A stretch of DNA of 40,691 bases from a virus: positions 1 to 40,691 of the IMG/VR virus record IMGVR_UViG_3300025030_001266. The stretch is one strand, 5' to 3'. The position numbers and the translations under genes were made by a program. Positions 3,346 through 37,480 of the stretch are shown here, piece by piece (position 1 is the stretch's first letter; every line of letters begins with the position of its first letter). A model generated the notes under the pieces. It searched no databases. It was not told where the DNA came from and worked only from the letters and a program-made list of their open reading frames with translations.

Positions 3346-4584
3346 ATGGCTAATTACGTCGTAAAACCGGGGGACACTCTCAGTAAAATAGGGGCGCAGT
3401 TCGGCGTACCTTACCAGCAAATTACAGGTTACAGATCGGGCAATCCCAACTTGATTTATGCCGGTGAGACACTAACCATTCCTGACAAGACGGGCGCTAC
3501 CGCCCCGGTTCCTGCGCCACCGGCCATGCCAACGTCAACCCCTACGGCTCCACAGCCGACGCCAACTCCTACTGCTACTCCTGCACCCGCCCCTGCCGGT
3601 CAAGTTAATCCCAATGACGCCAATTCTATAAAAGCGGCATATCAAGGTTATGCCGGGTGGAACGATCCTAACGCCATAATTGCTGATTTCAAAGCGACTG
3701 GTGGTCAGGGCAAGGGTGGGCCAGTTAGTGCTCCCACGGGGACTCCGGGGGGCGCGGGAACTGCTTTTACCGGCTTAACCAATCAACCAACTATTGATCT
3801 GCCGAAGATTTATCAGAATCTGTATACCTCATCCGGAATTTCTGACAAAGAAGCTCAAATTACTCAAAAAGAAAAACAATATCTTGAAGCCAGGACCAAA
3901 ATATCGGACAACCCATTCTTGTCGGCTTCAATGGTGGACAAAAGGCTGGCCAGGCTCCAGAATCTTTACAATACTGAAACCCTACCCTTAAAGAACGAGA
4001 TTGCCATGAAAAAGGCAGACGTAGAAACGCAATTAAATCTCCAGATGAAGCAGTTTGATATAAATAGCCAACAGGCTCAATTAGCCATGAGCCAGTTTAA
4101 TGCTCTTCTTGCCACTGGCGCGTACAATAATGCCAGTGGAGAAGATATAGCCAATATCACAAGGGCAACGGGATTAAGTAGCACTATAATTCAGTCGGCG
4201 ATAGGGGCCACAAAAAAGAAGGGCGTTGAGGCGTATGCGGGGACAGTAGATGACGCTAGTGGCCAATGGGCATTTATAATTGACAAGAACACTGGCGCCT
4301 TAATTTCCAAAACGAAAATAGCGGAGGCAAAACCAAAAGAACCTACTGCTACAAATCAAAAGATTGCAGATGAACAACAAACCCAAAAAAATGCAGTTGG
4401 AGATATACAGAGAGGTGTAAGTTTGCGAGACATTGTTAATCACTATGGAATTGCTGGTGGCCTAGCTGTGGAAGATTTACTTAGAATTTACAATAGTTAC
4501 TCTCCATATGGGGTGGCCACGGAATCGATGGAGGAAGTCAAAAGTGGAATTTTTTATGATTTACAATCAAAATCAAAAAAGTAA
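3346..4584 (+). CDS. LysM-domain virion protein
   Basis: Residues ~3-47 form a clear LysM peptidoglycan-binding domain (YVVKPGDTLSKIGAQFG ... NPNLIYAGETLTIP). A Pro/Thr/Ala-rich linker follows (~50-85), then a Gly-rich segment and a long helical, Gln-rich region (~165-260) with coiled-coil character, and a C-terminal helical part. There is no hydrolase motif, so it probably binds the wall rather than cuts it. Lying between the adaptor and the 1565-residue protein, it is likely a virion component that engages peptidoglycan during entry or anchors internal proteins. The cell-entry role is inferred. Confidence 0.75.
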   Translation: MANYVVKPGDTLSKIGAQFGVPYQQITGYRSGNPNLIYAGETLTIPDKTGATAPVPAPPAMPTSTPTAPQPTPTPTATPAPAPAGQVNPNDANSIKAAYQGYAGWNDPNAIIADFKATGGQGKGGPVSAPTGTPGGAGTAFTGLTNQPTIDLPKIYQNLYTSSGISDKEAQITQKEKQYLEARTKISDNPFLSASMVDKRLARLQNLYNTETLPLKNEIAMKKADVETQLNLQMKQFDINSQQAQLAMSQFNALLATGAYNNASGEDIANITRATGLSSTIIQSAIGATKKKGVEAYAGTVDDASGQWAFIIDKNTGALISKTKIAEAKPKEPTATNQKIADEQQTQKNAVGDIQRGVSLRDIVNHYGIAGGLAVEDLLRIYNSYSPYGVATESMEEVKSGIFYDLQSKSKK

Positions 4585-4590
4585 ATATGT

Positions 4591-7500
4591 ATGGTAATAC
4601 AGCCAATTGGATCAACGACCATAATTTCTAAAACCTCTCAAGGGAGTAGGGTGATTCAGCCTCTTGTTAGTACGAGCCAACCAATATTACAAGGACGGGA
4701 AACTCCATCTTCAACGTCAACTCCGACCCCACTTTCAGGACTTGTCAAATTATCATCATCTGTTATCAAAAAAGTCCAATCCTATTTTCAGCCGGGAGCC
4801 AGAATAAATATTCCCTCTGTGGATTTTTCAGGAATTAAGCCCGAAATTGTTCGACCAAAAACTGACTTACTTGGACCAACTCCTTCGGTAGCGGGGGCAT
4901 CGGCACAATTAACTCCGCAGGCAAAAAGATTAGCAACGGGCAGAATACAAAGTTATATAGAAAAAGTAAAACCCGGACTTAAAGAAGCTGTTATGTCCCC
5001 CATTGATCCGACAATTGGATTTTTTGGTGAGTATATTGCGGCTTTTAAGCGGGCTGAAGGAGATCAAACAGTCAAATTTGAACCCCAGACCACCAATCAG
5101 GCTATTGGAGTCGTTGCTCATAATTTTCTTAGAGACTTGACAGCGATGGAAGCTGGAGGCATTAACACTGCATTTATCAATGGTATGAAAACTTTAGACG
5201 CTGTGATTGGAGCTAGTCCCACATTAACTGCTATTAACAACATTCCGGATGCTGTTACCAAAAAGATTATGAAGGCTATCTCCCCCAAATTGGGATATCT
5301 GGAGAATTATTATGCCAAAAACAAACTCACTTTTGATGTGGTTCGTGAAGTGCAGGCAGGCCGGGGAACTCCGGAACAAATATCCGCAGTTAAAAAAGCA
5401 AATGCGCGTGGGTCACTACCGGAAATTGTCAGAGCAAGCAGAAAAATGGGGGTGAAGGAAAATTCAAAGATTTCCGAATTTGTCAGACAACTTGTGGGTG
5501 GAGTTAAAAAAGTATTTTCCGGCGTTGGAAAAGACAGAAGTGGAGTTAAATTATTTTCGGAGATAAAACCCGGAGAAAAAGTAGACCCAAGAATTTTGGA
5601 AACCGGGAAAGCGCCGGCAGCGCCACCGACAGAAGTCGGGGGGAGACTTGCAATTCCAATGGACAAGTCAAAATACACTGGTCTCAAGACAGCCTCGGTT
5701 GTTGTTAGACCTGACGGTACAGGTTCTATGTTTGTTGAGTTCAACAAAGAAGCGCAAGGGCAGGGACAGGGGACAGCTTTTGTAAAAGAAGCCGAGCAAA
5801 AACTTTTAGAAAAGGGAGTAAATAAAGTACAGATTCAATCTTTCAAAGAATCTTTAGGTTTTTGGGAAAAGTTAGGCTACAGAGAAACAGGAGTATCGAC
5901 AGGTAGAGGGGACTTAGTAAATATGGAGAAAAGTTTAACCGTTCTCCCCCCTAGTGTTAAGCCAGTTATCCAGTCCCAAGAAGCCCCAGTTAAGCCGATA
6001 GGGGAGGGGATACCCAAAGAACTAGAATCTCTTGCCCAAGAAGCAAGGAAGTACAAGAGTGCGGAGGAGTTTGTAAAAGGAATTTCAAAAGACACTTATG
6101 CCCCAGAATATAGAAATCCTTTGGCTGATTATTACAGGAAGTCTGTTTATGAACCATTGTCACACGAGGCATATCAAAAAGGTGTTGGGTTTAGTACAAA
6201 TCCAATTCAACTTGAAGGTAACTTAGATATGGTTTTGGAGAAAACCATTAGTAAAAACAAATTAGAAAATATGTCAGTTAAACAGAAGGCTGAAATGGTA
6301 TTGGGTAAGAATTGGACTAAAAGGTATCTAGATTCGTTAAACAAGGGAGGAGTAATAGGTTTTGTTAAAGACTTCTACACCCAAGCTACTAAGGGAGTAG
6401 AAGCTAAACCCCAAGGCATCGAGATGCCACCCACCGCTAAAACAGCCGTTGTAGAGGCCCCAAGCGGGATAAAGGCAGTTGAAAAAGAATTGGCTGGTGA
6501 AGTTGAAAAAAGGATCGGTGAAATTGTTCCCCCCATAGGGCTCGGTATTAAGCGGGTTTTCAAACCAGCCATAAGTGATAAGGTAATAGGCTTAAAAAAA
6601 CAAGTGAAGTTTAACGATCCAGAAATAGAAAGTCGGTACAAAAATGCAAAGGGAATAAATACACGGGGATATTATATGAAAAGAGTTAAAGATTTTGTAC
6701 AAAATTTTTATCACCGGGCTACAAGAACTTATCCAGACTTGCCCAACAAACCGGAATTTGCGGAAGTGAAAATTATTCTTGGCAGAACCCAAAATGTGAG
6801 GTCAGTAGTTCAGGACAAAACCGCTAGAATCTTACAAGGTATCACCGCTGACATTGGCCCCAATAAATTAGACGTGTTTACCAGAAAAGTAATTTTGGAC
6901 GATTTGGTACAGGAGGCAAAAGAAAAAAGAGCTTTGCCCTTGGGATATTCCGAATATGATGACGCCGGTAATTTAACTATCAAGGAAGAACTGTTAAATG
7001 TTGACAAGGAAAAGATTGATAAATTGGTATTTGCAAATCCAGACATTGCGGAAGCATTGGCTCGGAGAGACAAAATGTGGAAAGCAATTACAGATGAGTT
7101 GGTCGAGTACGATATTTTGAAAGAGGAACAAGTCAAAAAAGATTACTTTAGACATCAAATTTTGGAATATGTCAATGCAAAAAGCCGTGTGACTAAAGGG
7201 GTCGGCCCAGCTCTCAAACAGAGAAAGCCTGGTTATGCCAAACAAAGGCAGGGTTCTACTTATGATATAAATACAGACTATTTGCAAGCGGAATTTGAGG
7301 TTATGTCCCAAGCTCTGCACGATATTGAAATAGCAAAACTTTTAAAGAGAGTCGAGAGGCTTCCAATTAACATAAAATCTGATCTAGTAAAAAAGGCCAA
7401 AGAGGGAGAAGACTGGCACGATCTAATTCCGGAAGGATATGTAACATGGCAACCAAAAGACGGCAGAGTTTTTTATCAAGTCAACACAATTCCAGAAAGA

Positions 7501-9288
7501 ATCGTTAATCAGTTTATTGATGACATCGGCGCCGGAGTCCTCAAAATAGACCAGGGTTTGATAAACAAGGCTCTTGCTGTCGGCGGAAAAAGAAAAGAAC
7601 TTGTCTTGCCAGAGGAGGTTGCGAAAACTCTTGATAATTTATGGATAGCCAAGCAGCCAAATTGGGTAACAGATTCGACAAAAGCCTTAACGACTTTGTG
7701 GAAAAAATGGGTATTGTTCAACCCCCGCAGGGCTATCAAATATAACTACCAAAACTTTTTGGGAGATGCAGATGCGGTGTTTGCTGCAAATCCCGCTGTT
7801 TTCAAGAAAATGCCACAAGCGACCAAAGAACTTTATGCTGTTTTTAAGGAAGGTGCCCCCATGACAGATACAATGAAAGACTTTTTTGAAAGAGGAGGAT
7901 TTTCCAGTATGCTTACTATTCAAGAAATCCCAGACATTAAGAATATAAGAATTTTTGAGAGACTTTATGAAAAAGCGGGGCGGGCGAAAACTCTGTCCCA
8001 AAAATTAAACATTGTTAAAGGATACTGGGACGGCGTGATTAAGTTTACACAGTTTAGGGAGAGTCAACTTCGGTACGCCGCCTACTTGGATTATGTCGAA
8101 AGGTTTACCTCTGGAAAGAATCTCAACTATGGGGCAAGCAATAGATTAGAAGTTGATGCTCTAGGCGACATTAAAGACAAGGCGGCAAAAGTTGCAACTG
8201 AATTACTGGGTGATTATGCCAACATTACAGCACTGGGTAAAGATTTACGAGAATCCGCAATCCCTTTCTATTCTTGGATGGAAATAAATATGAGACGTTA
8301 TCCCGCCATTTTAAGAAATGCTTGGCAGGAAGGGGCTGGAAAGGGAATGGGAACTTCCGCAAAGGTATTGGGGTTAGGAACTATTAAGGGGGCATGGGCC
8401 ACCTTGGGAACCCTACTTAGAATAATTGCGCTTACGGGGGGAGTAATGACTTACAACCAACTGTTTCATTCTGACGCTGAACAAGATTTGCTCGATTATG
8501 ATCGAGGACGGATGCACATAAATTTGGGGTATGACAAAAATGGAGAGGTTTCCATCCTGCGTGGGCAGGGGGCGCTTTCTGATTTCTTGGAATGGTTTGG
8601 ACTGGACGAAGCCCCTATTTTATGGAGAGAGTATTTTGAAGGAAAGGCTTCCTTGACAGACATTTTCGGGAAGATTCCTCTTGTAACTGGAAAGATTGGA
8701 ATAAAACCCATTGTCTCCAAATTCATGGGAAGTATTACCCCCACCTATAAAATTCCTTTTGAAATCATAAGTGGCCGGAGCTGGCCGTTTCAGGGTACAG
8801 AGAGTTATCCCATTGAAGATAAGTGGAGAAAATTATTCCAGAACATTCAACTTGAAAATGAGTACGATTTCATATTTCAAAAACCATCGCGGGGCTATCT
8901 AAAATCGTGGGGGATGGCGGTTATCACTAAAACTAATCCGCAAGAAAACGCTTATCGCCACATTCAAAGTCAAAAGTATGCGTATCTTGAAACAAAGGGA
9001 AAAGGAGGATCCAGCAATTATTATAGCCCCAGAAGCATTGTCTATCGTGCGTACAAAAAGGCTCTGATATATGGTGACAAAAGGGCAGAAGAAAAGGCGT
9101 GGGACGAAATGAAAAAACTGGGAGTAAAGCCAGCCGATCTAAAAAAGTCATTAGAATGGACTGATCCTTTATCGGGATTAAGTAAAGAGGAAAAGAAAGA
9201 ATTTGTTAATGAATATCTTAGCCAGTCTGATAGGGAGAGACTTAAAAAGGCAAATGAATACTACAAAAAAGTTTTTCTCAATCGTTAA
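4591..9288 (+). CDS. Giant multidomain internal virion protein with GNAT-like domain
   Basis: At 1565 residues this is the largest product here. Residues ~1-130 are low-complexity Ser/Thr/Pro. Residues ~353-450 resemble a GNAT acetyltransferase: a strand VVVRPDGTGSMFVEF, the acetyl-CoA loop QGQGQGTAFVKEAEQ, then SFKESLGFWEKLGYRETG. From ~690 onward it is a long helical region. Residues ~1040-1300 (NPRRAIKYNYQNFLGDADA onward) resemble the large polyvalent-protein domains of phage polyproteins, with a hydrophobic segment near residue 1275-1295. The C-terminus is Lys-rich and helical. No protease or polymerase catalytic motif was recognised. Position beside adaptor and lysis genes suggests an ejected internal protein. 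Start ATG 4591 follows an out-of-frame ATG at 4587, and no clear Shine-Dalgarno is present. Confidence 0.75.
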   Translation: MVIQPIGSTTIISKTSQGSRVIQPLVSTSQPILQGRETPSSTSTPTPLSGLVKLSSSVIKKVQSYFQPGARINIPSVDFSGIKPEIVRPKTDLLGPTPSVAGASAQLTPQAKRLATGRIQSYIEKVKPGLKEAVMSPIDPTIGFFGEYIAAFKRAEGDQTVKFEPQTTNQAIGVVAHNFLRDLTAMEAGGINTAFINGMKTLDAVIGASPTLTAINNIPDAVTKKIMKAISPKLGYLENYYAKNKLTFDVVREVQAGRGTPEQISAVKKANARGSLPEIVRASRKMGVKENSKISEFVRQLVGGVKKVFSGVGKDRSGVKLFSEIKPGEKVDPRILETGKAPAAPPTEVGGRLAIPMDKSKYTGLKTASVVVRPDGTGSMFVEFNKEAQGQGQGTAFVKEAEQKLLEKGVNKVQIQSFKESLGFWEKLGYRETGVSTGRGDLVNMEKSLTVLPPSVKPVIQSQEAPVKPIGEGIPKELESLAQEARKYKSAEEFVKGISKDTYAPEYRNPLADYYRKSVYEPLSHEAYQKGVGFSTNPIQLEGNLDMVLEKTISKNKLENMSVKQKAEMVLGKNWTKRYLDSLNKGGVIGFVKDFYTQATKGVEAKPQGIEMPPTAKTAVVEAPSGIKAVEKELAGEVEKRIGEIVPPIGLGIKRVFKPAISDKVIGLKKQVKFNDPEIESRYKNAKGINTRGYYMKRVKDFVQNFYHRATRTYPDLPNKPEFAEVKIILGRTQNVRSVVQDKTARILQGITADIGPNKLDVFTRKVILDDLVQEAKEKRALPLGYSEYDDAGNLTIKEELLNVDKEKIDKLVFANPDIAEALARRDKMWKAITDELVEYDILKEEQVKKDYFRHQILEYVNAKSRVTKGVGPALKQRKPGYAKQRQGSTYDINTDYLQAEFEVMSQALHDIEIAKLLKRVERLPINIKSDLVKKAKEGEDWHDLIPEGYVTWQPKDGRVFYQVNTIPERIVNQFIDDIGAGVLKIDQGLINKALAVGGKRKELVLPEEVAKTLDNLWIAKQPNWVTDSTKALTTLWKKWVLFNPRRAIKYNYQNFLGDADAVFAANPAVFKKMPQATKELYAVFKEGAPMTDTMKDFFERGGFSSMLTIQEIPDIKNIRIFERLYEKAGRAKTLSQKLNIVKGYWDGVIKFTQFRESQLRYAAYLDYVERFTSGKNLNYGASNRLEVDALGDIKDKAAKVATELLGDYANITALGKDLRESAIPFYSWMEINMRRYPAILRNAWQEGAGKGMGTSAKVLGLGTIKGAWATLGTLLRIIALTGGVMTYNQLFHSDAEQDLLDYDRGRMHINLGYDKNGEVSILRGQGALSDFLEWFGLDEAPILWREYFEGKASLTDIFGKIPLVTGKIGIKPIVSKFMGSITPTYKIPFEIISGRSWPFQGTESYPIEDKWRKLFQNIQLENEYDFIFQKPSRGYLKSWGMAVITKTNPQENAYRHIQSQKYAYLETKGKGGSSNYYSPRSIVYRAYKKALIYGDKRAEEKAWDEMKKLGVKPADLKKSLEWTDPLSGLSKEEKKEFVNEYLSQSDRERLKKANEYYKKVFLNR

Positions 9289-14002: not shown

Positions 14003-14459
14003 GGCATTTTATTGAGCTGGCCCAGGGCTGATACCCGCGCTTGAGAAATAACTGATAACCAATGTCAATATTGTCGCGCCAATCAAGAAGCCGAGACATA
14101 GGTATCCCGTGTACTGGAGCAATTTGGAGTAATCCTCCATCCCCCGTTTTACTGATAACTGTGGGGCGAAAACTACTTTCGCAAGCGATGATTTTAAGTA
14201 TCTTTTGACAGCTCCATTTGAATCTGGGGTCGCAGACATATCTTTTAATTTCTTCCACTTCTCTGCTTCTTTGGTTACCGGTCGCAGAAAGTTTGGGTCT
14301 ACCCGGATTTTCTCTGGTGCCGTAGATTTGTAATGTTTGAGGGTAGGCATACTTTACTGATGAATCAGCCAAATAACCAGCATGAGCAGTAGCAACCCCA
14401 GCAAGAATCCCTGCACCAAGGCCGATAAGGATAAGTCCCAAAATTGTTTCATGTCGCAT
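13989..14459 (-). CDS. Lytic transglycosylase-like protein
   Basis: The 156-residue product has an N-terminal hydrophobic signal or anchor (ILGLILIGLGAGILAGVATAHA) and a C-terminal lysozyme-like domain: catalytic E94 in ACESSFRPT, then TGDGGLLQIAP, and DNIDIGYQLFLKRGYQPW. This is the SLT/goose-type arrangement, cleaving glycan strands outside the inner membrane. An AAAGG site precedes ATG 14459. Unusually for a lysis-type enzyme it lies in the replication operon, not with the M23 lysin, so it may serve superinfection, egress or virion assembly. Confidence 0.75.
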   Translation of the reverse strand: MRHETILGLILIGLGAGILAGVATAHAGYLADSSVKYAYPQTLQIYGTRENPGRPKLSATGNQRSREVEEIKRYVCDPRFKWSCQKILKIIACESSFRPTVISKTGDGGLLQIAPVHGIPMSRLLDWRDNIDIGYQLFLKRGYQPWASSIKCHGIR

Positions 14460-15225
14460 TTTTCCTTTCTTTTTCTTTGAAATACTCTGTCTTCATAAAC
14501 TGCTGCCATTCCCATAGCTTTTTTGCGCTCAAAAAAGCCTCAAAACATTTATCTATATTATTAGCCGTCTTAAACTCAAACGATCCGTCCCGGCCGATCC
14601 GGATGATCCCCTGATGTTTGTATTTCTCTTGAGGGAACTCTTCCTGCCGGGCAATTCCATAAGAAGATAACTGAATAAAATATTCGTCATATATTCCAGT
14701 AGATGTTTTTATATCTCCCAAAAACAGTTCACCATTCACCTTGGCTACAAAATCCAGCGTCCCGCAATATCCATGAATTTTGGAGTATACCGGCTGTTCA
14801 GACAAAAGGAAATTTACTTTATGTTCTTCTTTCCAGGCCAAGAAATTATTGATGGAATCCCGCAACTGTTGGTTGATTGGCATTTCTGGGTTCTCACCTT
14901 TTATGTGTTTGCTGATCCACTCGTGTACCATGCTGCCAATATCGGCAGTCTCTTGCTTGCGTGTCATGTGAGCTTTTCTGGCTGTCGTAAAAAGACTGTT
15001 TAGTTGAATTTCGTCATAAGATACTCCTGGTTTGATATTCGCCACCAAATAGTCTACCGCTTGTCCGGCGGCCCAGTTAATAAGCGCCGGCTTATTTATA
15101 ACCGACAAGACAGTAGTCACACTGGGAATCTTTTTGCCTTCTGGCAAAAGAGTGTAGACATGCCGGAAAGAATCGAACTCCAATTTAATCTTACCCTTAT
15201 ATAATTCAAGAAGAGTTTTAGCCAT
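14449..15225 (-). CDS. PD-(D/E)XK exonuclease-like protein (RecB/Cas4-like)
   Basis: The 258-residue protein carries the full PD-(D/E)XK set in order: H101 in VHEW, E143 in SEQPVYS, D158 in GTLDFV, D171-x-K173 in LGDIKTS, and Q185-x-x-x-Y in QLSSYG. This matches PDDEXK_1 nucleases such as RecB C-terminal domains and Cas4. No Cys cluster for an iron-sulfur site is evident. In phages such proteins act in recombination or DNA processing beside ssDNA-binding proteins, as here. Substrate polarity cannot be told from sequence. Confidence 0.8.
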
Positions 15226-16919: not shown

Positions 16920-17133
16920 TTTCTTCTCCTTCTTTATCCTCCATATGGGAATTTTCAAAAACGCCAGCCAGCCAACCTTCCAAGATAGCGCGGGAGACGC
17001 GGGGGCTTTGTTCACCAATGTTTCTGATTACAGGCAAAGGGTCTTGTTTCCTTTTAATCAACTCATATACTTTTTGCCTAGACACTTGTAAGTATCCGGC
17101 AACTTGCGTCACAGTCATCAATTCGTTAACCAT
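16912..17133 (-). CDS. HTH (excisionase/MerR-type) DNA-binding protein
   Basis: The 73-residue protein has a winged-helix/HTH_17 pattern at residues ~6-60: MTVTQVAGYLQVSRQKVYEL, then IRNIGEQSPRVSRAILEGWL, the wing and final helix typical of excisionase-like regulators. It is first in the minus-strand operon and divergent from the primase gene. The promoter's predicted start lands on ATG 17133; ATG 17118 (MTVTQ) is an alternative start. It probably regulates its own divergent promoter region. Confidence 0.8.
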   Translation of the reverse strand: MVNELMTVTQVAGYLQVSRQKVYELIKRKQDPLPVIRNIGEQSPRVSRAILEGWLAGVFENSHMEDKEGEENV

Positions 17134-17223: not shown

Positions 17224-17529
17224 ATGTTAAATTCCAAGCCCCGATACATTGTCCACTCCGCATGGAACCGGTACACAAAAGACAACAATCTCTCCACGGC
17301 AAAGAAATTTCCCATTGAAAAAATGTACGAGGGAAGATTGAGACAGGTAGGCAAGGTGATGATGGGCCGTTGCCCCTTCCATGAAGAAAAGACCCCCAGC
17401 TTTGCTATCTATCCGGAAAATAACACCTGGTATTGCTTTGCTTGTTCATCCGGCGGTGATGCAGTTACATATTATATGAAGAAAACCGGAAGTAATTTTG
17501 CCCAGGCAGTGGAGGAATTATCAAGATGA
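17224..17529 (+). CDS. DnaG-type primase zinc-binding (CHC2) protein
   Basis: The 101-residue protein is a free-standing CHC2 zinc domain: C50 and H53 in GRCPFHEEKTPSF, C71 and C74 in WYCFACSSGGDAV, followed by a helix that ends AVEELSR. In DnaG-type primases this domain selects template and initiation sites. Here it is separate from the TOPRIM-helicase gene, which overlaps it by four bases. The start lies directly behind the divergent promoter. Confidence 0.88.
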   Translation: MLNSKPRYIVHSAWNRYTKDNNLSTAKKFPIEKMYEGRLRQVGKVMMGRCPFHEEKTPSFAIYPENNTWYCFACSSGGDAVTYYMKKTGSNFAQAVEELSR

Positions 17530-19130
17530 CAGCCGACCAATATTTCAAAGACCACGGCGTAAATCCGGACTATGCCAAATCCATGGGTCTGTCGTGGGAC
17601 GACCAAGAGATACACATTCCCATCAAAGACGCCGAAGGCAATACTATATTCTCGAAGCACCGGAACCTCCATTACAGCAAAGACAATCCCGAATCAGCCA
17701 AGTACCGCTCCGATAGCGGTTCCCGCGCCGCTCTGTTTAATTATCACGTTGTCAAGGGCAGGCCCTATGTGGTGATCTGCGAGGGAGAAATCGACTCCGT
17801 GAGACTTAATCAGGAGGGCATACCCTCGGTGTCTTCAACAGGCGGGAGTCAAAAGTTCGACCAAGACTGGTCGACTCTATTGGAGTCAACGCAGACCTTT
17901 GTCTGCTACGACTCTGATTTCGCCGGCCAGTCTGGGGTCAAAAAAGTATTGGAGCTGCTGCCAGAAGCCAAAGTAATCCAGCTTCCAAACAAGTACAAAG
18001 ACGTGTGCGACTTCTTTGTAGACGGCCACAACAAGGCGGATTTTATAGCCCTGATGCGCAAGGCGCTGACAAAAGAAGAATGGGAGAGAGTGAACCGCCC
18101 GGAGGATTATGCCCGGATTAGCGCTCAAGAACTGGCCAATATGATGTTTCCTCCAGAGCAATGGCTGGTGGACAAGATCATATATAAGGAAGGGTTTTGT
18201 TTTATATATGGCGCTGAAGGTACCGGCAAGAGTTTCATCACTCTTTCACTGGCCCAAGCCGTAGCCTCTGGCACCGACTGGTTGGGCCAATTCAAAGTCC
18301 CGCAAGCCGGCAAAGTGATGTTTATAGACAAAGAGAACCCCAAGCCCATGCTGGCCCGCAGACTCAAAGCGCTGGGAATGGATAGCCCGAACATTACTTG
18401 GATCAAGTACCCGGAGAAGTTGCAGTTGGTGGATGAGAAAGGCCAAGTGACCCCATTCGCTCAAGCCTTAGCCGATGATGTGGTCGCGGAAGGAATCCAA
18501 ATGATAGTTATAGACAGTTTTGTAGACCTCATGGTCGGGAATGAGAATGCTGCCTCAGACACTCAAATGTTCTTTGATACCATGCGGGCGCTGTTTCCAA
18601 ACGTGGCCATGGTAGTCATTCACCACGAGAACAAACCCAGCCAGGGAGTGTTTAGATCAGATAGTCAAAGGGCCAGAGGTTCCAGTAACATCAGCGCCCA
18701 GACTGTTACCCAGTTTAGGTTGGAAGCGGTAGCCAAAAGTAAAACCGATTTGACGCTCAAGCAAACTAAAGCCAGGGACGCCCAGAAGATAGATAAGTTT
18801 ATGGTTCGGATGGTGGTAGCTACCAACGAAGATGGCGCTACTCAAGTAACGGGATTTGAGTATGTGGGGATAGTCGCTGGAGACATAGATGAGAAAACCG
18901 ATGAAGCTCGAGCAACCATAGAAGAAATGTTGAGCGTAGAATCTCTCATTTCCCGAAAGGAGATTATAGAGTTATGTCAGAATAGAGGAATATCCGAAAG
19001 CACTGTCAGAAGAAGTCTGAAAAAAATGCTGGAGGATGAAATTATTGATGAGACAAGTGATCCGCAAAACAAAAGCAAAAAGAACTATTTTTTAATTAAC
19101 GCCGTGAAAATTGAAGAGGATGGGGAGTAA
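17526..19130 (+). CDS. Primase-helicase (TOPRIM + RecA-like ATPase + winged helix)
   Basis: The 534-residue protein contains TOPRIM at ~80-165 (E86 in ICEGEID, D129-x-D131 in CYDSDFAG), then a RepA/AAA_25-like ATPase at ~205-440: Walker A GAEGTGKS at 229-236, Walker B IVID ending at 330, and VVIHHENKP. A C-terminal winged helix spans ~455-525 (SRKEIIELCQNRGISESTVR). It should prime and unwind DNA at the phage origin. The N-terminal zinc domain is supplied by the upstream gene. A repeat cluster immediately follows and may be its origin. Confidence 0.85.
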   Translation: MTADQYFKDHGVNPDYAKSMGLSWDDQEIHIPIKDAEGNTIFSKHRNLHYSKDNPESAKYRSDSGSRAALFNYHVVKGRPYVVICEGEIDSVRLNQEGIPSVSSTGGSQKFDQDWSTLLESTQTFVCYDSDFAGQSGVKKVLELLPEAKVIQLPNKYKDVCDFFVDGHNKADFIALMRKALTKEEWERVNRPEDYARISAQELANMMFPPEQWLVDKIIYKEGFCFIYGAEGTGKSFITLSLAQAVASGTDWLGQFKVPQAGKVMFIDKENPKPMLARRLKALGMDSPNITWIKYPEKLQLVDEKGQVTPFAQALADDVVAEGIQMIVIDSFVDLMVGNENAASDTQMFFDTMRALFPNVAMVVIHHENKPSQGVFRSDSQRARGSSNISAQTVTQFRLEAVAKSKTDLTLKQTKARDAQKIDKFMVRMVVATNEDGATQVTGFEYVGIVAGDIDEKTDEARATIEEMLSVESLISRKEIIELCQNRGISESTVRRSLKKMLEDEIIDETSDPQNKSKKNYFLINAVKIEEDGE

Positions 19131-19134
19131 ACCC

Positions 19135-19293
19135 TGTTCATGGAGTCTGTTCATGAACACACTTTACAATATAGCTTATTATAGCCATAATTATAAAACA
19201 GTGTTCAAAAGCCTGTTCAAAATTCCTGTGTTATCTAAAAAAGTGTGTTCACTGTTCACTATGTAATAGTGAACACTCTTTTTGAACACACTT
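19135..19293 (+). repeat. TGTTCA/TGAACA repeat cluster, candidate origin
   Basis: Nine TGTTCA or TGAACA hexamers occur in about 155 bp (direct at 19135, 19148, 19202, 19214, 19246, 19253; inverted at 19154, 19270, 19283). They form a 12-bp palindrome (19148-19159), a 10-bp-arm hairpin (19253-19262 with 19266-19275) and an 11-bp inverted pair (19241-19251 with 19283-19293). An AT-rich stretch lies at about 19163-19200. Position next to the primase-helicase suggests an origin. The central hairpin followed by CTCTTTTT could instead or also be a terminator. Confidence 0.6.
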
Positions 19294-19311: not shown

Positions 19312-19527
19312 ATGAATGGTGAATTGTTAGAAATTAAATCCTTATTTAAGAAGCTGGCGTCCGCCAGTGTGTGGTGTCAGTCGCACCAGCAAACAGAGCA
19401 ATCGCAGCTCTTGATTGAAAGCTACTGCGAAGCGCTGGAACGATTAGGAGTGTGGCGGCAGTTTGCGGAGGCGGTGTTCGTGTTTGGAATAAACAGTGAA
19501 GTAGCATACAGGGCGTGGAGAGGTTGA
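19312..19527 (+). CDS. Small hypothetical protein
   Basis: The start is taken as ATG 19312; an earlier TTG at 19282 lies inside the inverted repeat. The 71-residue product is helical with two Trp and no recognised motif (LFKKLASASVW, LIESYCEALERLGVW). There is no clear ribosome-binding site. It is the first gene after the repeat cluster. Function unknown. Confidence 0.45.
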   Translation: MNGELLEIKSLFKKLASASVWCQSHQQTEQSQLLIESYCEALERLGVWRQFAEAVFVFGINSEVAYRAWRG

Positions 19528-20236: not shown

Positions 20237-20592
20237 TGGCAGAAGAGGGGGTTATTGTTGTGCAATCCACACAGCAGTTAAGTAACAGGGATGAGCGGGG
20301 GAAGTTTAAGCCTGGTTTTTCTGGCAATCCCGGGGGGCGTCCCAAGGGTTTTTTAACTTCGATAATGTACGATATTTTGAAGAAAGACGGTAATCAGTCA
20401 GAAAATATCATAAAAAAATTATTAGAAATGGCCTTATCTGGTGATATTGCTGCGATTAAAGAGATACTTGATCGGATAGAGGGCAAGTCGGTGATGAAAG
20501 CTGAAGTTAAAACAGTGGACGCGCCAAAGTCTATTTTGGAAACCTATGTACCAACAAACGACAGCAACCAAGAAATTAAGGGCGTTGAGTAG
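20236..20592 (+). CDS. Terminase small subunit-like (DUF5681)
   Basis: The 118-residue protein has the DUF5681 signature DERGKFKPGFSGNPGGRPKG near residues 18-38, followed by a helical part (ENIIKKLLEMALSGDIAAIKEIL). This domain is found upstream of terminase large subunits and probably recognises packaging sites. Its C-terminus overlaps the start of the large subunit by 47 bp, supporting a functional pair. Confidence 0.75.
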   Translation: MAEEGVIVVQSTQQLSNRDERGKFKPGFSGNPGGRPKGFLTSIMYDILKKDGNQSENIIKKLLEMALSGDIAAIKEILDRIEGKSVMKAEVKTVDAPKSILETYVPTNDSNQEIKGVE

Positions 20593-21721
20593 GCGTATCC
20601 GGGGGGTTGGTGGGGGAACTTCGGCTTCAAAGACTGTTTCAATTCTTCTCATCTTAATTGATTATGCTCAATCGCGCGCTGGTGAGTTAATAAGTGTAGT
20701 TTCAGAGTCTTTTCCGCATTTAAAACGGGGCGCTATTAGGGACTTTATGAGTATTATGGTTGAGCATGGATATTTTTTAGACGATAGGTGGAATAAAACA
20801 GATTGTGTTTATACTTTTGAAACGGGTTCTATTATAGAATTTTTCAGCGCCGACCAGCCGGGTAAGGTACGCGGTCCCAGGCGGGATGTGCTTTTTATCA
20901 ATGAGGCGAACAATATTTCTTATGAAACTTATACCCAACTCGAAATTCGGACAAAGAAAGTAGTCTGGCTTGACTGGAACCCGGTGAGTGAGTTCTGGTG
21001 GTACACAGAGGTGGTAAATAAGCAAGACGTGGATTTTATTACTTTGACTTATCGGGATAATGAGGCATTAGACCCGCAGATTATTCAGGCTATTGAAGCT
21101 CGGCGGGATAATAAGCGTTGGTGGGTTGTGTATGGCGAAGGCCAGCTTGGGGAGGCGGAGGGCAAGATTTACCGGGATTGGCAGATTATAGATGAAGTGC
21201 CACATGAAGCTAGACTTGAAAGATACGGGTTGGACTTTGGTTACAGCAATGATCCAACTGCGTCAGATGCTATTTATCGATGGAACGGGGCGTACATCGT
21301 GGACCAGGTAATTCATCAAGTTGGGTTAAGTAACAAACAGATTGCTGACATTTATATCAATATGGCGAGAGCGTTGGTGGTCGCAGATAGTGCGGAACCG
21401 AAAAGTATTGATGAAATAAAGAGCTATGGAATTAACATCTTAGCTTCAACTAAGGGTAAGGGGAGTGTTTTGCAGGGGATACAATATGTTCAGGACCAAC
21501 GGATTTACGTCACCAAGAGGAGTACAGAGACACTGAAAGAGTACCGGAACTACTTTTGGATAACGGACAAGGATGGAAAAAATGTGAATGAGCCTAGCCC
21601 GATTTGGAATCATCACATGGATGATGTTCGGTATGGTATTGTGAGTTGTGCTGGTCGGACGTTATGGAAACCCAATGACCCCGGTGGTGTTAAACCATTA
21701 TTCGAAGGCCTACCGGGTTAG
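20546..21721 (+). CDS. terL: Terminase large subunit
   Basis: The 391-residue protein has the two domains of a packaging motor. The ATPase carries an atypical Walker A, GGTSASKT at 23-30, and Walker B with catalytic E120 in DVLFINEAN. The nuclease domain has D230 in LDFGYSNDPTA, D281 in VVADSAEPKS and a C-terminal HHMDDVRYG acidic motif. The lack of a classical GKT and the arrangement match the Terminase_3/PBSX-like family. It translocates and cuts genomic DNA at the portal. The start at 20546 lies within the small-subunit gene. Confidence 0.92.
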   Translation: MYQQTTATKKLRALSRRIRGVGGGTSASKTVSILLILIDYAQSRAGELISVVSESFPHLKRGAIRDFMSIMVEHGYFLDDRWNKTDCVYTFETGSIIEFFSADQPGKVRGPRRDVLFINEANNISYETYTQLEIRTKKVVWLDWNPVSEFWWYTEVVNKQDVDFITLTYRDNEALDPQIIQAIEARRDNKRWWVVYGEGQLGEAEGKIYRDWQIIDEVPHEARLERYGLDFGYSNDPTASDAIYRWNGAYIVDQVIHQVGLSNKQIADIYINMARALVVADSAEPKSIDEIKSYGINILASTKGKGSVLQGIQYVQDQRIYVTKRSTETLKEYRNYFWITDKDGKNVNEPSPIWNHHMDDVRYGIVSCAGRTLWKPNDPGGVKPLFEGLPG

Positions 21722-26436: not shown

Positions 26437-27456
26437 ATGGCTATATTCAAAATCAAAACAGATTTGTCAAAGGCGGTTCAAAACGAGATTGACAGGGTTC
26501 TCGCGATTTCCAGTGCTAATCGAACTACGGCGGAGGCCAATTTCTTGGCGGCCTTACTTCCTTATCAGACTAATGCCATTCTCCGGTGGGATACTGACCA
26601 AATCTATGGCGCCCAGACTCCTAATGCCCAACTTTCTACAGATTTGATTGCAGAGGCCGAAGGTGACAGTCTGCCAACCGGAGACTCTGGATTCAAAAGG
26701 GGAGCGCTTTTTTACAAGCTGAACAAAGACGGGAACAGGATATTTGTCAATGTTGGTACGGGCACGTCTGCCGTTTGGGAACTGATAACCTCGGCTACAA
26801 CGACTGATCTATCGAGTTCTCCATCAGCATCAGTATCACCAAGTGCAAGTCTCTCACCATCAGCCAGTCTCTCGCCGTCAGCGTCACAGTCGCCGTCAGC
26901 GTCCAGTTCGGCTTCAGCCTCTAAGTCTGCATCTGCCAGTCTTTCACCGTCAGCGTCGGCGTCGTCTTCTGTATCAGCTTCTCTTAGCCCATCTGCGTCT
27001 GCTTCAAAGTCACTATCGCCATCAGCGAGTGCTTCCGCGTCTAAATCCGCGTCAGCTTCGCCATCTCTTAGTCCGTCTGGGTCTGCCAGTGGTTCTGCCT
27101 CGGCTTCTCTTAGTCCGTCAGCATCAGCATCAGCGTCCGCATCGGCTTCTGCTTCTAAGTCTGCCAGTGCGTCAGCTTCTGCCTCTCTCTCGCCGTCTGC
27201 ATCAGAATCAGCGTCGGCCAGCGCTTCGCTGTCACCATCTGCTAGTCAGTCACCATCGGCTAGTGCAAGTGCTTCTCTTAGTCCTTCAGCGTCTGGGTCT
27301 GCGTCAGGATCGGCGTCTGCTTCAAAGTCGTTGTCTCCGTCTGCGTCAGCCTCGGCTTCAGGATCGGCCAGTGGTTCAGCTTCAGCGTCTAAGTCTGCAA
27401 GTCCATCTGCGTCTATTTCACCATCGGCATCGCCGTCACCATCTTTGCCTTTCTAG
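26437..27456 (+). CDS. Serine-rich-repeat head-associated protein
   Basis: Residues 1-127 form a folded N-terminal domain (AIFKIKTDLSKAVQNEIDRV, FYKLNKDGNRIFVNVGTG). Residues ~128-337 are a serine-rich repeat, alternating Ser with Ala, Pro, Lys, Leu or Gly, then ending PSLPF. Codons vary widely, so the pattern is kept at protein level. Immediately after the capsid gene, the protein is likely a head fibre or decoration with an extended Ser-rich stalk. Streptococcal adhesins with such repeats are O-glycosylated by clustered transferases, and a sugar cassette follows here. Confidence 0.8.
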   Translation: MAIFKIKTDLSKAVQNEIDRVLAISSANRTTAEANFLAALLPYQTNAILRWDTDQIYGAQTPNAQLSTDLIAEAEGDSLPTGDSGFKRGALFYKLNKDGNRIFVNVGTGTSAVWELITSATTTDLSSSPSASVSPSASLSPSASLSPSASQSPSASSSASASKSASASLSPSASASSSVSASLSPSASASKSLSPSASASASKSASASPSLSPSGSASGSASASLSPSASASASASASASKSASASASASLSPSASESASASASLSPSASQSPSASASASLSPSASGSASGSASASKSLSPSASASASGSASGSASASKSASPSASISPSASPSPSLPF

Positions 27457-27823: not shown

Positions 27824-28729
27824 ATGTTGTCAGTGATAATTCCGAGCCGGAATTGCCAGTTTTTGACCCGTACGATTCAGGATATTTTGGAAAAAGCAGT
27901 AGACGAGATCGAGGTAATCGTAAATATAGACGAGAATTTGCCAGATACGCGCGTAGAGGATTCAAGGGTCACATATCTTCATCCAGACGCTCCAATAGGT
28001 TTGAGGAAGGGTATTAATGCTTGTGTAGCAGTGGCTAAGGGTAAGTACATAATGAAAACAGATGACCACTGTTTGTTTGGTCCCAAGTTTGACAGGATCC
28101 TCATAGAGGCCCATTTAGACGACAAGTGGGTACAGATACCCCGTAGGTACTCTTTAGACGCAGAGAACTGGTGTATTAATTATTCAAGACCATACAGGGA
28201 CTATATGTATATAGATTTTCCCCGGAAGGGAAAAGACCACGACGACGGTATGCATGGGGTGGAGTGGTATGGGAGACAACGAGAACGAATCGGTCCGGAG
28301 TACGACATGGATGATACAGCCTCAATGCAGGGGAGCTGTTATTTTATGGCTAAAAATCATTTTGATAACTTTTTGCATGGATTAGAAGAGTATCCAGTAC
28401 CAGGAGAGGTGGGGTACGGCCAGTTTTCGCAAGAGTCACAAGAAATTGGATTCAAGACATGGTTGGGTGGAGGAGCGATGAAAGTCAACAAAAAGACCTT
28501 CTACGCTCATTTACACAAAGGTAAGACTTATGGACGGATGTACAGTATACCCAGCTGGAACGACTACACGGTCAAGGCTTCGGCTTGGAGTGCCGATTAT
28601 TGGTTAAATAATAAGTGGAAGGACAGAGTACATGACTTTGAGTGGTTTGTTGATGAGAAGTTTCCAAGTATGCCGAGTTGGCCGTTAGATTGGAAGAGAC
28701 AAGTAAAGGAGATGGGATGGATACTATGA
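27824..28729 (+). CDS. GT-A glycosyltransferase, GT27-like (copy 1)
   Basis: The 301-residue protein starts MLSVIIPSRN, the GT-A nucleotide-sugar entry strand. It has D80-D81-H82-C83 in KTDDHCLF, E207, W213-L-G-G-G, and H229/H231 in FYAHLH. The D-x-H-C metal motif and W-x-x-G-G ... H layout match polypeptide GalNAc-transferases (GT27) better than the usual D-x-D of GT2. Those enzymes attach GalNAc to Ser/Thr of proteins. Paralogues are at 29571 and 35852. A virion protein substrate, especially the Ser-rich proteins, is inferred. Confidence 0.8.
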   Translation: MLSVIIPSRNCQFLTRTIQDILEKAVDEIEVIVNIDENLPDTRVEDSRVTYLHPDAPIGLRKGINACVAVAKGKYIMKTDDHCLFGPKFDRILIEAHLDDKWVQIPRRYSLDAENWCINYSRPYRDYMYIDFPRKGKDHDDGMHGVEWYGRQRERIGPEYDMDDTASMQGSCYFMAKNHFDNFLHGLEEYPVPGEVGYGQFSQESQEIGFKTWLGGGAMKVNKKTFYAHLHKGKTYGRMYSIPSWNDYTVKASAWSADYWLNNKWKDRVHDFEWFVDEKFPSMPSWPLDWKRQVKEMGWIL

Positions 28730-29384: not shown

Positions 29385-29578
29385 GTATATTTTCGACAGC
29401 GGGAATGAAAGAGTTAGTAAAGCCAAAACCTATTAAGTGTCCAGTCTGTAAAAAACTGCTTGATTGGTATATTTATGACGATCAGAAACACTATACAACG
29501 AGTCACCATTTTGTTTGGGAGAATACCGAGGCATTATTGCACCATACCTTTTATTTAATTAAACCCAGATATGTCTAG
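29381..29578 (+). CDS. Small zinc-ribbon-like protein
   Basis: The 65-residue protein has IKCPVCKKLLDW near residue 18, then a distal cluster of His (TTSHHFVWEN, LLHHTF). One C-x-x-C plus His residues could bind zinc. It overlaps the upstream methyltransferase (ATGA) and the downstream glycosyltransferase by eight bases. Function unknown. Confidence 0.55.
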   Translation: MSIFSTAGMKELVKPKPIKCPVCKKLLDWYIYDDQKHYTTSHHFVWENTEALLHHTFYLIKPRYV

Positions 29579-30458
29579 AGTAAGTATCATTATTCCCGCA
29601 AGGAATGAGAACCCAGATAATCTTAATAGAACAATACAGAGTATTTTTGATAATGCTACTGGTGAATATGAGATTATAGTTGGGTTTGATGGTAATTATC
29701 CTTACGATCTTCCTATGAAAGTAGGAGTAGAGATAGAAGAAATTAGGTTCCCCGATGTGGTGGGTATCAAAACCAATATCAACGCCATGTGTGCTATGGC
29801 TACTGGTAAATATATCTATAAGTCAGATGCGCATTGTTCATTCAGTAAAGGTTTTGATGAGGTTTTACAGGCAGACATGAGAGAAGACTGGATTGTCACT
29901 CCAAGATTCTATGTACTTAATGGTGAGACCTGGAAATGGCAAGATGGGAGATTCTATGACTATTTTTATTTGTGTTGTCCGTTCACTGATCCCAAAGGCT
30001 TTAGATTTAAAGCTGGTGGCCATTGGCCAGAGAGAACCCAAGAGAGGTTATTAAGTCACCTAGATATAGACGAAACTCCGCAGATACATGGATCGGGTTG
30101 GTTTATCAGCAAAGACAGATACTTTGAGTTGGGCGGATTCCCAAACATCGATCCCTATGGTCATGCTCAAGAACCTATTTGGTTGGGACTAAAGAACTGG
30201 TTGGCCGGAGGAAAAGTCATGGTAAACAAGAAATGCTGGTATGCGCATCTGCATCAGCAGGGTAATGAGAGGGGATATAACATGGATCACGCACAAGAAG
30301 TTAAGAGTTACGACATTGCAGCGAAGTATTGGGTTGGTGACAAATGGCACGAAAGGAAATATGACTTTAGTTGGTTTGTAGAGAAATTTGGTCCAATGCC
30401 AACATGGCCAGATAACTGGATAGAACTCTATTCAAAATGGCTAGTTGACAACCGATAA
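29571..30458 (+). CDS. GT-A glycosyltransferase, GT27-like (copy 2)
   Basis: The 295-residue paralogue has SIIIPARNEN, D86-A87-H88-C89 in KSDAHCSF, E201, W210-L-A-G-G and H226/H228 in WYAHLH. It therefore shares the D-x-H-C and W-x-x-G-G ... H pattern of polypeptide GalNAc-transferases. It starts in an overlap with the small zinc protein. Its stop is followed by a promoter for the Tad2-like gene. Acceptor unknown; Ser-rich virion proteins are the proposed target. Confidence 0.8.
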   Translation: MSRVSIIIPARNENPDNLNRTIQSIFDNATGEYEIIVGFDGNYPYDLPMKVGVEIEEIRFPDVVGIKTNINAMCAMATGKYIYKSDAHCSFSKGFDEVLQADMREDWIVTPRFYVLNGETWKWQDGRFYDYFYLCCPFTDPKGFRFKAGGHWPERTQERLLSHLDIDETPQIHGSGWFISKDRYFELGGFPNIDPYGHAQEPIWLGLKNWLAGGKVMVNKKCWYAHLHQQGNERGYNMDHAQEVKSYDIAAKYWVGDKWHERKYDFSWFVEKFGPMPTWPDNWIELYSKWLVDNR

Positions 30459-33357: not shown

Positions 33358-34014
33358 ATGGAAAACGAAACAGTCTTAAACTATCTTCAGAGAATGTATC
33401 ATGGCAACCTGCCGTTTGCTGGCAACGGTCAGGTGGTTTTGAGACATTTTGGCAGAAAGCACGGAATCTTGAAGATGTTTAACGACTTGGACTTTAAGGT
33501 AGGGGTAGAAGTGGGAACGGAGCGGGGAATCTACGCGCACAGGATTTGCGAGAAATGTCCAAACCTGAAACTTTATTGTGTCGATCCCTGGTTGGCATAT
33601 TCAGAAGCCGGACTTGTTTATACCCAGGAAGATTTTGACTCAAGGTATGAAGAGGCAAGAGCTAGGTTAAAAGATTTTAACTGCGAGATAATCAAGGAAA
33701 AGAGCATGGATGCTCTAAGTAAATTTGAGGATGACTCCCTTGATTTTGCTTTCATAGACGGCGACCATCACTACGAACACGTTTTGGAAGACATAAGGGG
33801 GTGGTACAAAAAAGTCAAACCAGGGAGAGTCCTCTACGGACACGACTTTGTTGAAAGAGACGATTTTGGAGTAGTTAAAGCCGTAAGAGGGTTTGTTAAA
33901 GAAAACAACATTCCCCCCTTGTTTATTTGTCACGTCCCATTTAAAAGTAACGGGGTGGGATTTGTAGATTGTTGGATGCTACTTAAAGGGGGTACGCATG
34001 CCGATATGCGGTAG
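33358..34014 (+). CDS. Class I SAM methyltransferase (paralogue B)
   Basis: The 218-residue protein matches paralogue A over its length: FKVGVEVGTERGIYAHRIC, LYCVDPW, SLDFAFIDGDHHYEHV and WYKKVKPGRVLYGHDF. It belongs to the same SAM methyltransferase family. The gene overlaps the next one by 17 bp. Divergence from paralogue A in the C-terminal region may reflect a different acceptor. Confidence 0.75.
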   Translation: MENETVLNYLQRMYHGNLPFAGNGQVVLRHFGRKHGILKMFNDLDFKVGVEVGTERGIYAHRICEKCPNLKLYCVDPWLAYSEAGLVYTQEDFDSRYEEARARLKDFNCEIIKEKSMDALSKFEDDSLDFAFIDGDHHYEHVLEDIRGWYKKVKPGRVLYGHDFVERDDFGVVKAVRGFVKENNIPPLFICHVPFKSNGVGFVDCWMLLKGGTHADMR

Positions 34015-35304: not shown

Positions 35305-35855
35305 AGGCATACATAAAATATAACAAGCCACTACCGCTAGTAGATTACCTCTTGCCACTGGTTGGAGATAAAAAAGAAGTCAAAATCGCGGACATCGGTT
35401 CCGGCCCATGGTCTGTTATCGGATCGTATTCACCCGGAATAAAGGTCGAGATTTATCATTCTGATATTCAAGACTTTGGCTCCTTTTGGGAACAACGCCA
35501 GATGAAACCAGTCATCTCGGTGGAACGCCAGGATATGGAAAAACTGACATATCCGGATAACTTTTTCGATATCGTCCATTCCAACAACGCGTTAGATCAT
35601 ACTAAAAACGCTAAAGAGGCGGTTAAAGAAATGATCCGCATATGCAGAGCCGATGGTTGGGTTTATGTCCACTGCTGGCTTAATCAGCTTTCAACGGGAT
35701 ACCGACATTGCTGGAACGCCAAAGAAGATGGTACTTTTACGAACAACAAAGACACGTTTGACCTAAAAGAACTTGGCTTTCAGATTCAATTTATAGACCG
35801 AGGTGGTGAGAGTAGGTATAACGAAATAATTGCGACTTTAAAAAAGAAGGTATGA
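35301..35855 (+). CDS. SAM methyltransferase (Methyltransf_11-like)
   Basis: The 184-residue protein has KIADIGSGPWSVIG as motif I, EIYHSDIQDFG as strand 2, then FFDIVHSNNALDHTKNAKEA and EMIRICRADGWVYVHCW, the canonical motifs of type-11 methyltransferases. It overlaps genes on both sides by four bases. A role in methylating a cassette sugar is inferred. Confidence 0.75.
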   Translation: MKAYIKYNKPLPLVDYLLPLVGDKKEVKIADIGSGPWSVIGSYSPGIKVEIYHSDIQDFGSFWEQRQMKPVISVERQDMEKLTYPDNFFDIVHSNNALDHTKNAKEAVKEMIRICRADGWVYVHCWLNQLSTGYRHCWNAKEDGTFTNNKDTFDLKELGFQIQFIDRGGESRYNEIIATLKKKV

Positions 35856-37480
35856 TCGGACTTTCTGTACTTATTCCGGCTCGTGGAGAAGAATTTTTGG
35901 GTCGCACTATTCAAGACCTCTTAGAAAACATCCAAGGCGATACGGAGATAATAGCCGTTTTGGATGGTTACTTGCCCGACCCCCCCCTCCCGACCAGCGA
36001 CAAGGTAATGGTCATATATAACCCCGTATCGGTTGGTCAAAGAGCAGCAGCAAATCAGGCTGCTAAACTAGCTAAGGGTAAGTACGTAATGAAAGTAGAT
36101 GCTCACTGCGCTTTCGACAAAGGACTTGATGTCAAAATGATAGAGGCTTTCGGGGAAACAGGTGACAACGTAACAATAATACCTGTCATGCGCAACCTTC
36201 ACGCTTTTGACTGGGTGTGCGCGGAAGGTCATAGACGCTACCAAGGCCTCTCCGGCCCCTGTGAGACTTGTGGTAAACCCACGGTTAAGGATGTGGTCTG
36301 GATACCCAAAACAAGTCCAGCTACTCATTCCTTCAGATTCGATAAGACTATGCATTTTCAGTATTATTCCGAATACTCTAAAAGGCCAGAAGTTCAGAAG
36401 GGAATAGAGATAAACGGGGTCTATAACAAAGACCTGCGGGAAACTATGAGTATACAGGGGTCTTGTTTCATGCTTACTAAAGAAAAGTGGTTTGAGTTGG
36501 ACATTTGCAGTGAGCACTTCCACTCCTGGGGGCAACAGGGAGTCGAAGTTGCCTGTAAAACGTGGTTATCGGGTGGGAGAGTAATTGTTAATATGAAGAC
36601 TTGGTACGCCCACATGTTCAGAACCAAGGGTGGAGACTTCGGCTTTCCCTATTCCAACCCCCAAGACAAGGTAAACGAAAATAGAGAATTATCCAGAGAG
36701 CTGTTCCAGAGAGACAAGTGGCCCCTAGCGACCCGCAAGTTTCAGTGGATACTCGACAAATTCAATCCTCCAGATTGGGGAGTCAGCCGGGGGATAATCT
36801 TTTATACTGATAATCAGCTGGATGAAAAAATAGCAAAGCCCGTGAGAGATAATCTTCTAAAAATAAGCCAGGATAAAAAGGTAAACATCGTCAGCTCTTC
36901 TTTGAAGAAGATGGACTTTGGGGTGAAGAACGTACGCTTCCCCTCCCTTAAAAGGGGATTTTTGACCATGACCAAGCAAATTATAGGAGCTTTGGAGAAC
37001 AGTAGGGATGATTATGTATTTTTTTGTGAACACGATGTCTTATATCATCCTTCCCATTTCGACTTTATTCCACCCGATAAGCAGACTTTCTATTACAACC
37101 AGGCCGTCTGGCTACTTCGTCTCTCGGACGGCCATGCGCTTCACTACGACGTGAATCAGCTGTCTGGGCTGTGTGTATACCGTGAGACAGCTCTGGCTCA
37201 CTACCGGGAGCGCTACGAGTATATAGAGAAGAATGGCTGGAGTAATGAAATAGGACACGAACCCATGACTCACGGAAGAATAAAGTGGCACAATCAATTT
37301 AAATACGATACCTGGAAGTCGGAGTTTCCGAATGTGGATATAAAACACGGAGCAAACGCTACTGGACAAAGGTGGCGCAAGGATCAATATCGTAATCAAA
37401 ATCTTTTAATAAATTGGCAAGAAACCGACAACTGGCAGATCCCCGGATGGGAGAAGTCTTCTTTAGTTGTCTTGGGATAA
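35852..37480 (+). CDS. Two-domain glycosyltransferase: GT27-like plus second GT-A
   Basis: At 542 residues this is the third paralogue, fused to another domain. Residues ~1-290 are GT27-like: SVLIPARG, D83-A84-H85-C86 in KVDAHCAF, then WLSGGRVIVNMKTWYAH. It contains an extra zinc-like insertion with C123, H127, C137 and C140. Residues ~310-460 look like a second glycosyltransferase-type domain with FFCEHDVLYHP and GFLTMTKQIIGALENS. The fusion suggests two sequential transfer steps. Operon position directly precedes a Ser-rich LamG gene. Confidence 0.78.
   Translation: MIGLSVLIPARGEEFLGRTIQDLLENIQGDTEIIAVLDGYLPDPPLPTSDKVMVIYNPVSVGQRAAANQAAKLAKGKYVMKVDAHCAFDKGLDVKMIEAFGETGDNVTIIPVMRNLHAFDWVCAEGHRRYQGLSGPCETCGKPTVKDVVWIPKTSPATHSFRFDKTMHFQYYSEYSKRPEVQKGIEINGVYNKDLRETMSIQGSCFMLTKEKWFELDICSEHFHSWGQQGVEVACKTWLSGGRVIVNMKTWYAHMFRTKGGDFGFPYSNPQDKVNENRELSRELFQRDKWPLATRKFQWILDKFNPPDWGVSRGIIFYTDNQLDEKIAKPVRDNLLKISQDKKVNIVSSSLKKMDFGVKNVRFPSLKRGFLTMTKQIIGALENSRDDYVFFCEHDVLYHPSHFDFIPPDKQTFYYNQAVWLLRLSDGHALHYDVNQLSGLCVYRETALAHYRERYEYIEKNGWSNEIGHEPMTHGRIKWHNQFKYDTWKSEFPNVDIKHGANATGQRWRKDQYRNQNLLINWQETDNWQIPGWEKSSLVVLG

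Follow-up and report, generated by a model that had tools for sequence, protein, structure and literature searches.

Organization of the locus

The DNA analysed here (hereafter the window) comprises the 40,691 bases of an IMG/VR virus record that is classed as linear and is thus possibly incomplete. The locus under study comprises a CHC2 zinc-ribbon ORF, a primase-helicase gene and, directly behind the latter, an array of short repeats (Table 1). By exact hexamer counting, nine copies of TGTTCA/TGAACA were located in the array, six in forward (starts at 19135, 19148, 19202, 19214, 19246 and 19253) and three in reverse orientation (starts at 19154, 19270 and 19283). Whole-window shuffles gave a chance expectation of 0.10 copies for a 154-bp stretch. 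A previous sequence-only reading, which had reported nine copies in both orientations and about 0.1 expected by chance, was thus reproduced. In the entire window the word was found 34 times in both orientations (26.7 in shuffles), and no second TGTTCA cluster was present in the 40.7-kb record, itself possibly incomplete. None of the other hexamers was clustered with more than five copies in 200 bp in a whole-window scan, and hexamer clusters in the shuffled 9.6-kb locus around the helicase gene never exceeded five copies in 250 bp.

The array begins 4 bases past the primase-helicase stop codon (19130) and finishes before the next conserved ORF (ATG at 19312). A+T content is 69% in this 181-bp gap compared with 57% in the window, and reaches 80% at 19171-19200. 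Three inverted-repeat pairs were identified at the array (19238-19256/19265-19283, 19253-19262/19266-19275 and 19148-19159), with the dyad at 19253-19275 standing out most clearly, and as single-stranded DNA the array folds with a z-score of -4.0. The position just after the gene, the AT-rich segment and the nested inverted repeats had all been described in the sequence-only reading and proved to be real. At 19245-19286, a hairpin with a trailing T-run matches a terminator pattern (2 found vs 0.5 expected), and six promoter-like matches are located within the array (1.9 expected).

Table 1. Positions of genes, domains and repeat elements at the locus (window coordinates).
Feature	Position	Strand	Basis
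CHC2 zinc-ribbon ORF, primase zinc-binding half; 4-base overlap with next gene	17224-17529	+	Pfam Zn_ribbon_DnaG, E 3.9e-20
Primase-helicase: Toprim_2, AAA_25 (RepA-like RecA fold) and C-terminal winged helix	17526-19130	+	Pfam/PHROG
Winged-helix domain, residues 452-527, proposed iteron reader	18879-19106	+	HTH_24 below Pfam cut-off; AlphaFold
Turn and recognition helix GISESTVRRSLKKML, residues 488-502	18987-19031	+	Position best tracking iteron sequence among relatives
TGTTCA array, nine iterons, both orientations	19135-19288		Hexamer count
Abutting inverted iteron pair TGTTCATGAACA	19148-19159		Inverted-repeat search
A+T-rich spacer between iteron groups; candidate unwinding element	19160-19201		80% A+T at 19171-19200
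Dyad TGTTCACTAT-gta-ATAGTGAACA: inverted iteron pair, CTAT/ATAG centre, outer arms to 19238-19283	19253-19275		
Small ORF 3' of array, bounding the intergenic gap; also encoded by related locus L002	19312-19527	+	

Domain structure of the primase-helicase

The primase-helicase ORF encodes 534 aa. Among solved structures, the protein is closest by sequence to RSF1010 RepA, T7 gp4 and DnaG. Its AlphaFold model (mean pLDDT 86) matched T7 gp4 in Foldseek with an E-value of 3.5e-19, and the C-terminal winged helix was predicted with three helices and a two-strand wing. When searched in isolation, the winged helix yielded weak Foldseek matches to generic MarR/MecI-type winged helices, none at E <= 0.001, and no P4 alpha entry among the top 50. 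A Pfam search of the helicase returned neither a DUF927 nor a D5/primase-C-terminal match. In its model the protein thus resembles the T7 gp4 primase-helicase, extended by a winged helix at the C-terminus.

Arrays at related helicase genes

For the survey, loci were picked by helicase homology only, blind to repeats, and reduced to 72 non-redundant loci (<80% identity). In 50 of these, a single hexamer is repeated seven or more times within 250 bp. Of these strong clusters, 46 start between -150 and +450 relative to the helicase stop codon (9.5% expected; binomial tail ~1e-42). In these pattern-limited scans, whose percentages describe the sampled loci and not all phages, clusters with at least seven copies occurred at 64% of the 72 helicase 3' ends vs 0.3% of 913 other ORF ends. 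The 46 helicase-end arrays use 41 different hexamers and, with one exception, employ both orientations (45/46). Constant layout with a changing word is as expected of a cognate protein-site pair.

Conservation of the array, suggested as a check in the sequence-only reading, was thus strongly positive: most relatives share the layout, and L002 retains all nine hexamers despite substitutions in the surrounding gap. Two near-identical records (L001 and L003) carry little information on conservation. Named phages with an array are Alteromonas phage XX1924 (GGTTCA), Streptococcus phage Javan46 (GGGACA), Wolbachia phage WO (TGGCAA) and Roseobacter phages CRP-406 (GCTGGA) and CRP-831 (GTATAA). Three of five circular plasmid-collection records that were checked have the array at the same place, namely Caenibius p1 (TGCGGA), a 17-kb Klebsiella element with a capsid gene (TGCGGC) and a Methylobacterium plasmid (TGTTGC); in the Shewanella and Photobacterium plasmids it was not found.

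About a quarter of the surveyed loci had no array of at least six copies at the helicase end. Named phages that depart from the layout are Mycobacterium phage Minerva, Caulobacter phage RLK and Gordonia phage Wooper. In L006, L040, L087, L089 and L091 a winged helix is present, yet no array of at least six copies was detected at the helicase end. In L086 (+993), L029 (+874) and L035 (+839), the array is shifted 0.8-1.0 kb downstream of the helicase stop; array and gene end can therefore be separated. Several distantly related arrays (L005 ~3690-3800, L008 ~3980-4085, L046, L053 and L081) share the word GGGACA/TGTCCC (or AGGGAC); some iteron words therefore seem to have been reached repeatedly.

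L087 (3468-5081 of the locus; JAAZNV010000003.1, a candidate division WWE3 MAG), the closest relative to turn up in a bacterial genome, has ~48-50% identity and no clear iteron array. Further downstream, the sequence resembles the beginning of a serine recombinase gene; L087 is perhaps an integrated or decayed element. This relative gives a hint to the host group, to be taken as a lead, and with it a relevance to phages of mostly uncultivated bacteria.

Inside the variable arrays, a dyad centred on CT(A/T)0-6AG recurs (for example ACACCCCTTTAGGGGTGT and TTCCTATAGGAA). Helicase 3' regions (43 kb) contain 21 CT(A/T)nAG dyads with perfect arms of at least six pairs, compared with a single one in the other 442 kb of these loci. 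T-runs are generally absent after the dyads of relatives. With its centre CTAT-gta-ATAG, the dyad of the window is a variant and not an exact match to CT(A/T)nAG.

Covariation of iteron word and recognition helix

The close-relative set consisted of proteins with helicases 32-60% identical to that of the window, except for L002; all but L087 have arrays. The beginning of the recognition helix reads SESTVRRS in the window and L002 and SESTIRRS in L085, all with TGTTCA. SDSTLRRA (L010) is accompanied by TGGTCA, SETTVDRV (L009) and SESTFDRT (L102) by TGACGA, SRSTADRT (L106) by TGAGTA, SERTFITT (L083) and SERTIDSV (L084) by TTGCAA, and SKRTADTV (L104) by TTTGCA. Motif groups are thus SEST(V/I)RRS with TGTTCA, SE(S/T)T(V/F)DR with TGACGA, and S(E/K)RT with TTGCAA or TTTGCA.

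Repeat similarity was compared with protein identity by a partial Mantel test. For 13 proteins only, and with motif groups noticed before the test was designed, repeat similarity correlated with recognition-helix identity (r 0.36; partial r 0.42 given the core; permutation p 0.0002), vs r -0.02 for helicase-core identity (n = 13). Because the groups had been seen before the helix window was chosen, all 507 ten-residue windows over the whole protein were scanned; top correlations start at residues 483-491, which correspond to the helix-turn-helix.

Between L002 (4001-5602) and the window, residues 1-194 are identical and the repeats unchanged, the RecA-fold core is ~67% and the winged helix 91% identical. 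Other pairs at similar core identity share 20-43% in the winged helix. The helicase pair looks like a mosaic, as if the core had been swapped by recombination with winged helix and iterons retained. Judged from these sequence comparisons, winged helix and array behave as one unit.

Comparison with known replication systems

In the P4 database record, alpha type 1 repeats are annotated in two places, namely ori1 and the crr element that immediately follows the alpha gene. The repeat (TGTTCACC) contains the TGTTCA of the window, and both elements have TGTTCA-type repeats directly behind a primase-helicase gene. The P4 alpha helicase belongs to superfamily 3 (D5-like), whereas that of the window has an AAA_25/RecA fold. 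Furthermore, P4 needs two separated arrays and the window has one, and the C-terminal domain of alpha is without evident sequence similarity to its counterpart in the window. The shared word was rejected as a sign of homology, as the alpha C-terminus shows no evident similarity and the Foldseek matches listed for the winged helix were only generic winged-helix repressors. Since 46 arrays use 41 words, the shared word is probably a coincidence. The alpha protein, too, is a primase-helicase, and it binds short repeats of both orientations through a winged helix at its C-terminus, as is proposed for the protein of the window (PMC4234260).

In SaPI Rep and SCCmec Cch2 systems, the origin is located directly downstream of the helicase gene and its iterons are bound by the C-terminal domain (PMC7581432). 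Short iterons directly downstream of a helicase gene are likewise present in the window. The SaPI and SCCmec proteins are DUF927 or D5/primase-C-terminal helicases (PMC7581432), in contrast to the AAA_25/RecA helicase described here. Because its helicase is of another fold family, the system of the window would work like P4 and SaPI without being a member of either group.

The helicase domain is closest to RepA of RSF1010 (IncQ), whose oriV also combines iterons with stem-loops. In RSF1010 a separate RepC reads the iterons, whereas in the window one polypeptide joins primase, helicase and DNA-binding domain. IncQ iterons are ~20 bp long; the window, in contrast, has hexamer iterons and a proposed initiator domain that is fused to the helicase. 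The RSF1010 primase uses ssi stem-loops (PMC4234260), and by analogy we infer that the recurrent dyad may be an opening or priming site. Finally, pRN1 encodes a replication protein with a C-terminal winged helix and has a stem-loop origin directly downstream of its gene (PMC4234260). The window resembles it in the C-terminal winged helix and in the candidate origin directly 3' of the replication gene; unlike the window, pRN1 has an archaeo-eukaryotic primase with an SF3 helicase and a stem-loop origin without iterons.

By these comparisons, the array is best read as an iteron origin of the known kind in variant form, coupled to a helicase of another family than those of P4 crr/ori and SaPI. 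In the open-access literature searched, the arrangement was not found described for RepA-like phage helicases; subscription papers were not covered, so the claim of novelty is soft.

Interpretation of the array

Iteron origins generally comprise short repeats beside an initiator gene, an A+T-rich unwinding region beside the repeats, and an initiator domain that matches them. In the window, nine repeats are located 4 bp after the gene, and the gap is A+T-rich (69%) with its richest stretch at 19171-19200. The winged helix, by its presence and its covariation with the repeats in relatives, would be the matching domain. The array is very probably the replication origin, or the main initiator-binding part of it, read by the phage helicase's own winged helix. 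Origin activity and the steps below are inferred from the array itself, its position, the domain make-up of the protein, the conserved layout and the covariation. The primase-helicase would bind the TGTTCA iterons through its C-terminal winged helix, and a helicase multimer would build up on the array. The A+T-rich stretch and/or the dyad would be opened, the RecA-fold ring would load on the single strands with no separate initiator, and the fused Toprim domain would prime.

The iteron origin proposed in the sequence-only reading is thus supported by layout conservation and recognition-helix covariation and not by GC skew, which had been suggested as a check. Cumulative skew has its local minimum at 17747, the point of divergent transcription, and the array was likewise away from the minimum in three complete circular phage genomes. 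GC skew is dominated by gene direction and was dropped as uninformative.

Alternatively, the array might play the part of P4 crr, a second cis element that the helicase binds and that replication requires, with the true start elsewhere. The P4 array that follows the alpha gene is indeed crr, with ori1 located ~2 kb past the far end of that gene. SaPI origins, in contrast, occupy the position of the array (PMC7581432), and with a single TGTTCA cluster in the window the two-array P4 model was dropped. A crr-like role is unlikely.

Still less probable is that the array serves as operator and terminator, with the winged helix controlling its own operon or downstream late genes and the hairpin ending the primase transcript. 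The hairpin with its T-run and the promoter-like matches inside the array would fit this, and MarR/MecI-type winged helices are mostly repressors. However, the array is placed behind the gene rather than at its promoter, its downstream neighbours vary between phages, and iteron numbers of 7-16 are higher than in usual operators. Termination of the primase transcript, also considered in the sequence-only reading, is possible in this phage; as a general function it does not hold, and a pure terminator was rejected because T-runs are not conserved after the dyads of relatives.

A packaging (pac/cos) or terminase recognition site, to which the terminase genes within ~1.5 kb in the window (large subunit at 20546-21721) might point, is very improbable and was rejected, as the array stays with the helicase and not with the terminase in relatives (in MW202867 the array is at ~14430-14540 and the terminase starts at 16949, with a methyltransferase and other genes intervening; in CRP-831 the distance is ~3.5 kb or more), is also present in plasmid-collection records and covaries with the winged helix of the helicase.

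Extending the origin reading to the relatives, we lean slightly towards a widespread, so far unnamed origin class of phages and plasmids. In this class a RecA-fold primase-helicase would read its own 3' iteron array, a constant CT(A/T)nAG-centred dyad would be the common opening or priming site, and the iteron word would be repeatedly rewritten via a few residues of one recognition helix. Rewriting would perhaps be driven by incompatibility or by origin-targeting enzymes such as ICP1 Odn (PMC8263062). For uncultivated phages, a rule for finding origins would be to look just behind the RepA-like primase-helicase gene. With its changing word and stable layout, the family lends itself naturally to the study of how winged-helix specificity changes together with its site. 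That the dyad stays constant while the arrays vary points to a common step (opening or priming), which is testable in one member and transferable to others.

Additional features of the window

Glycosyltransferase family 2 domains were found in three genes (27824-28729, 29571-30458 and 35852-37480) and a methyltransferase domain in a fourth (33358-34014); for a phage of such size, this sugar chemistry is unusual. Several predicted proteins contain long Ser/Ala/Pro-rich low-complexity coding repeats (26869-27419, 38264-38446, 40491-40660 and 2061-2146), one of which adjoins a laminin-G/lectin-like domain (37503-38519). A predicted protein of 1565 aa is encoded at 4591-9288, with an acetyltransferase (GNAT) domain at residues ~385-439.
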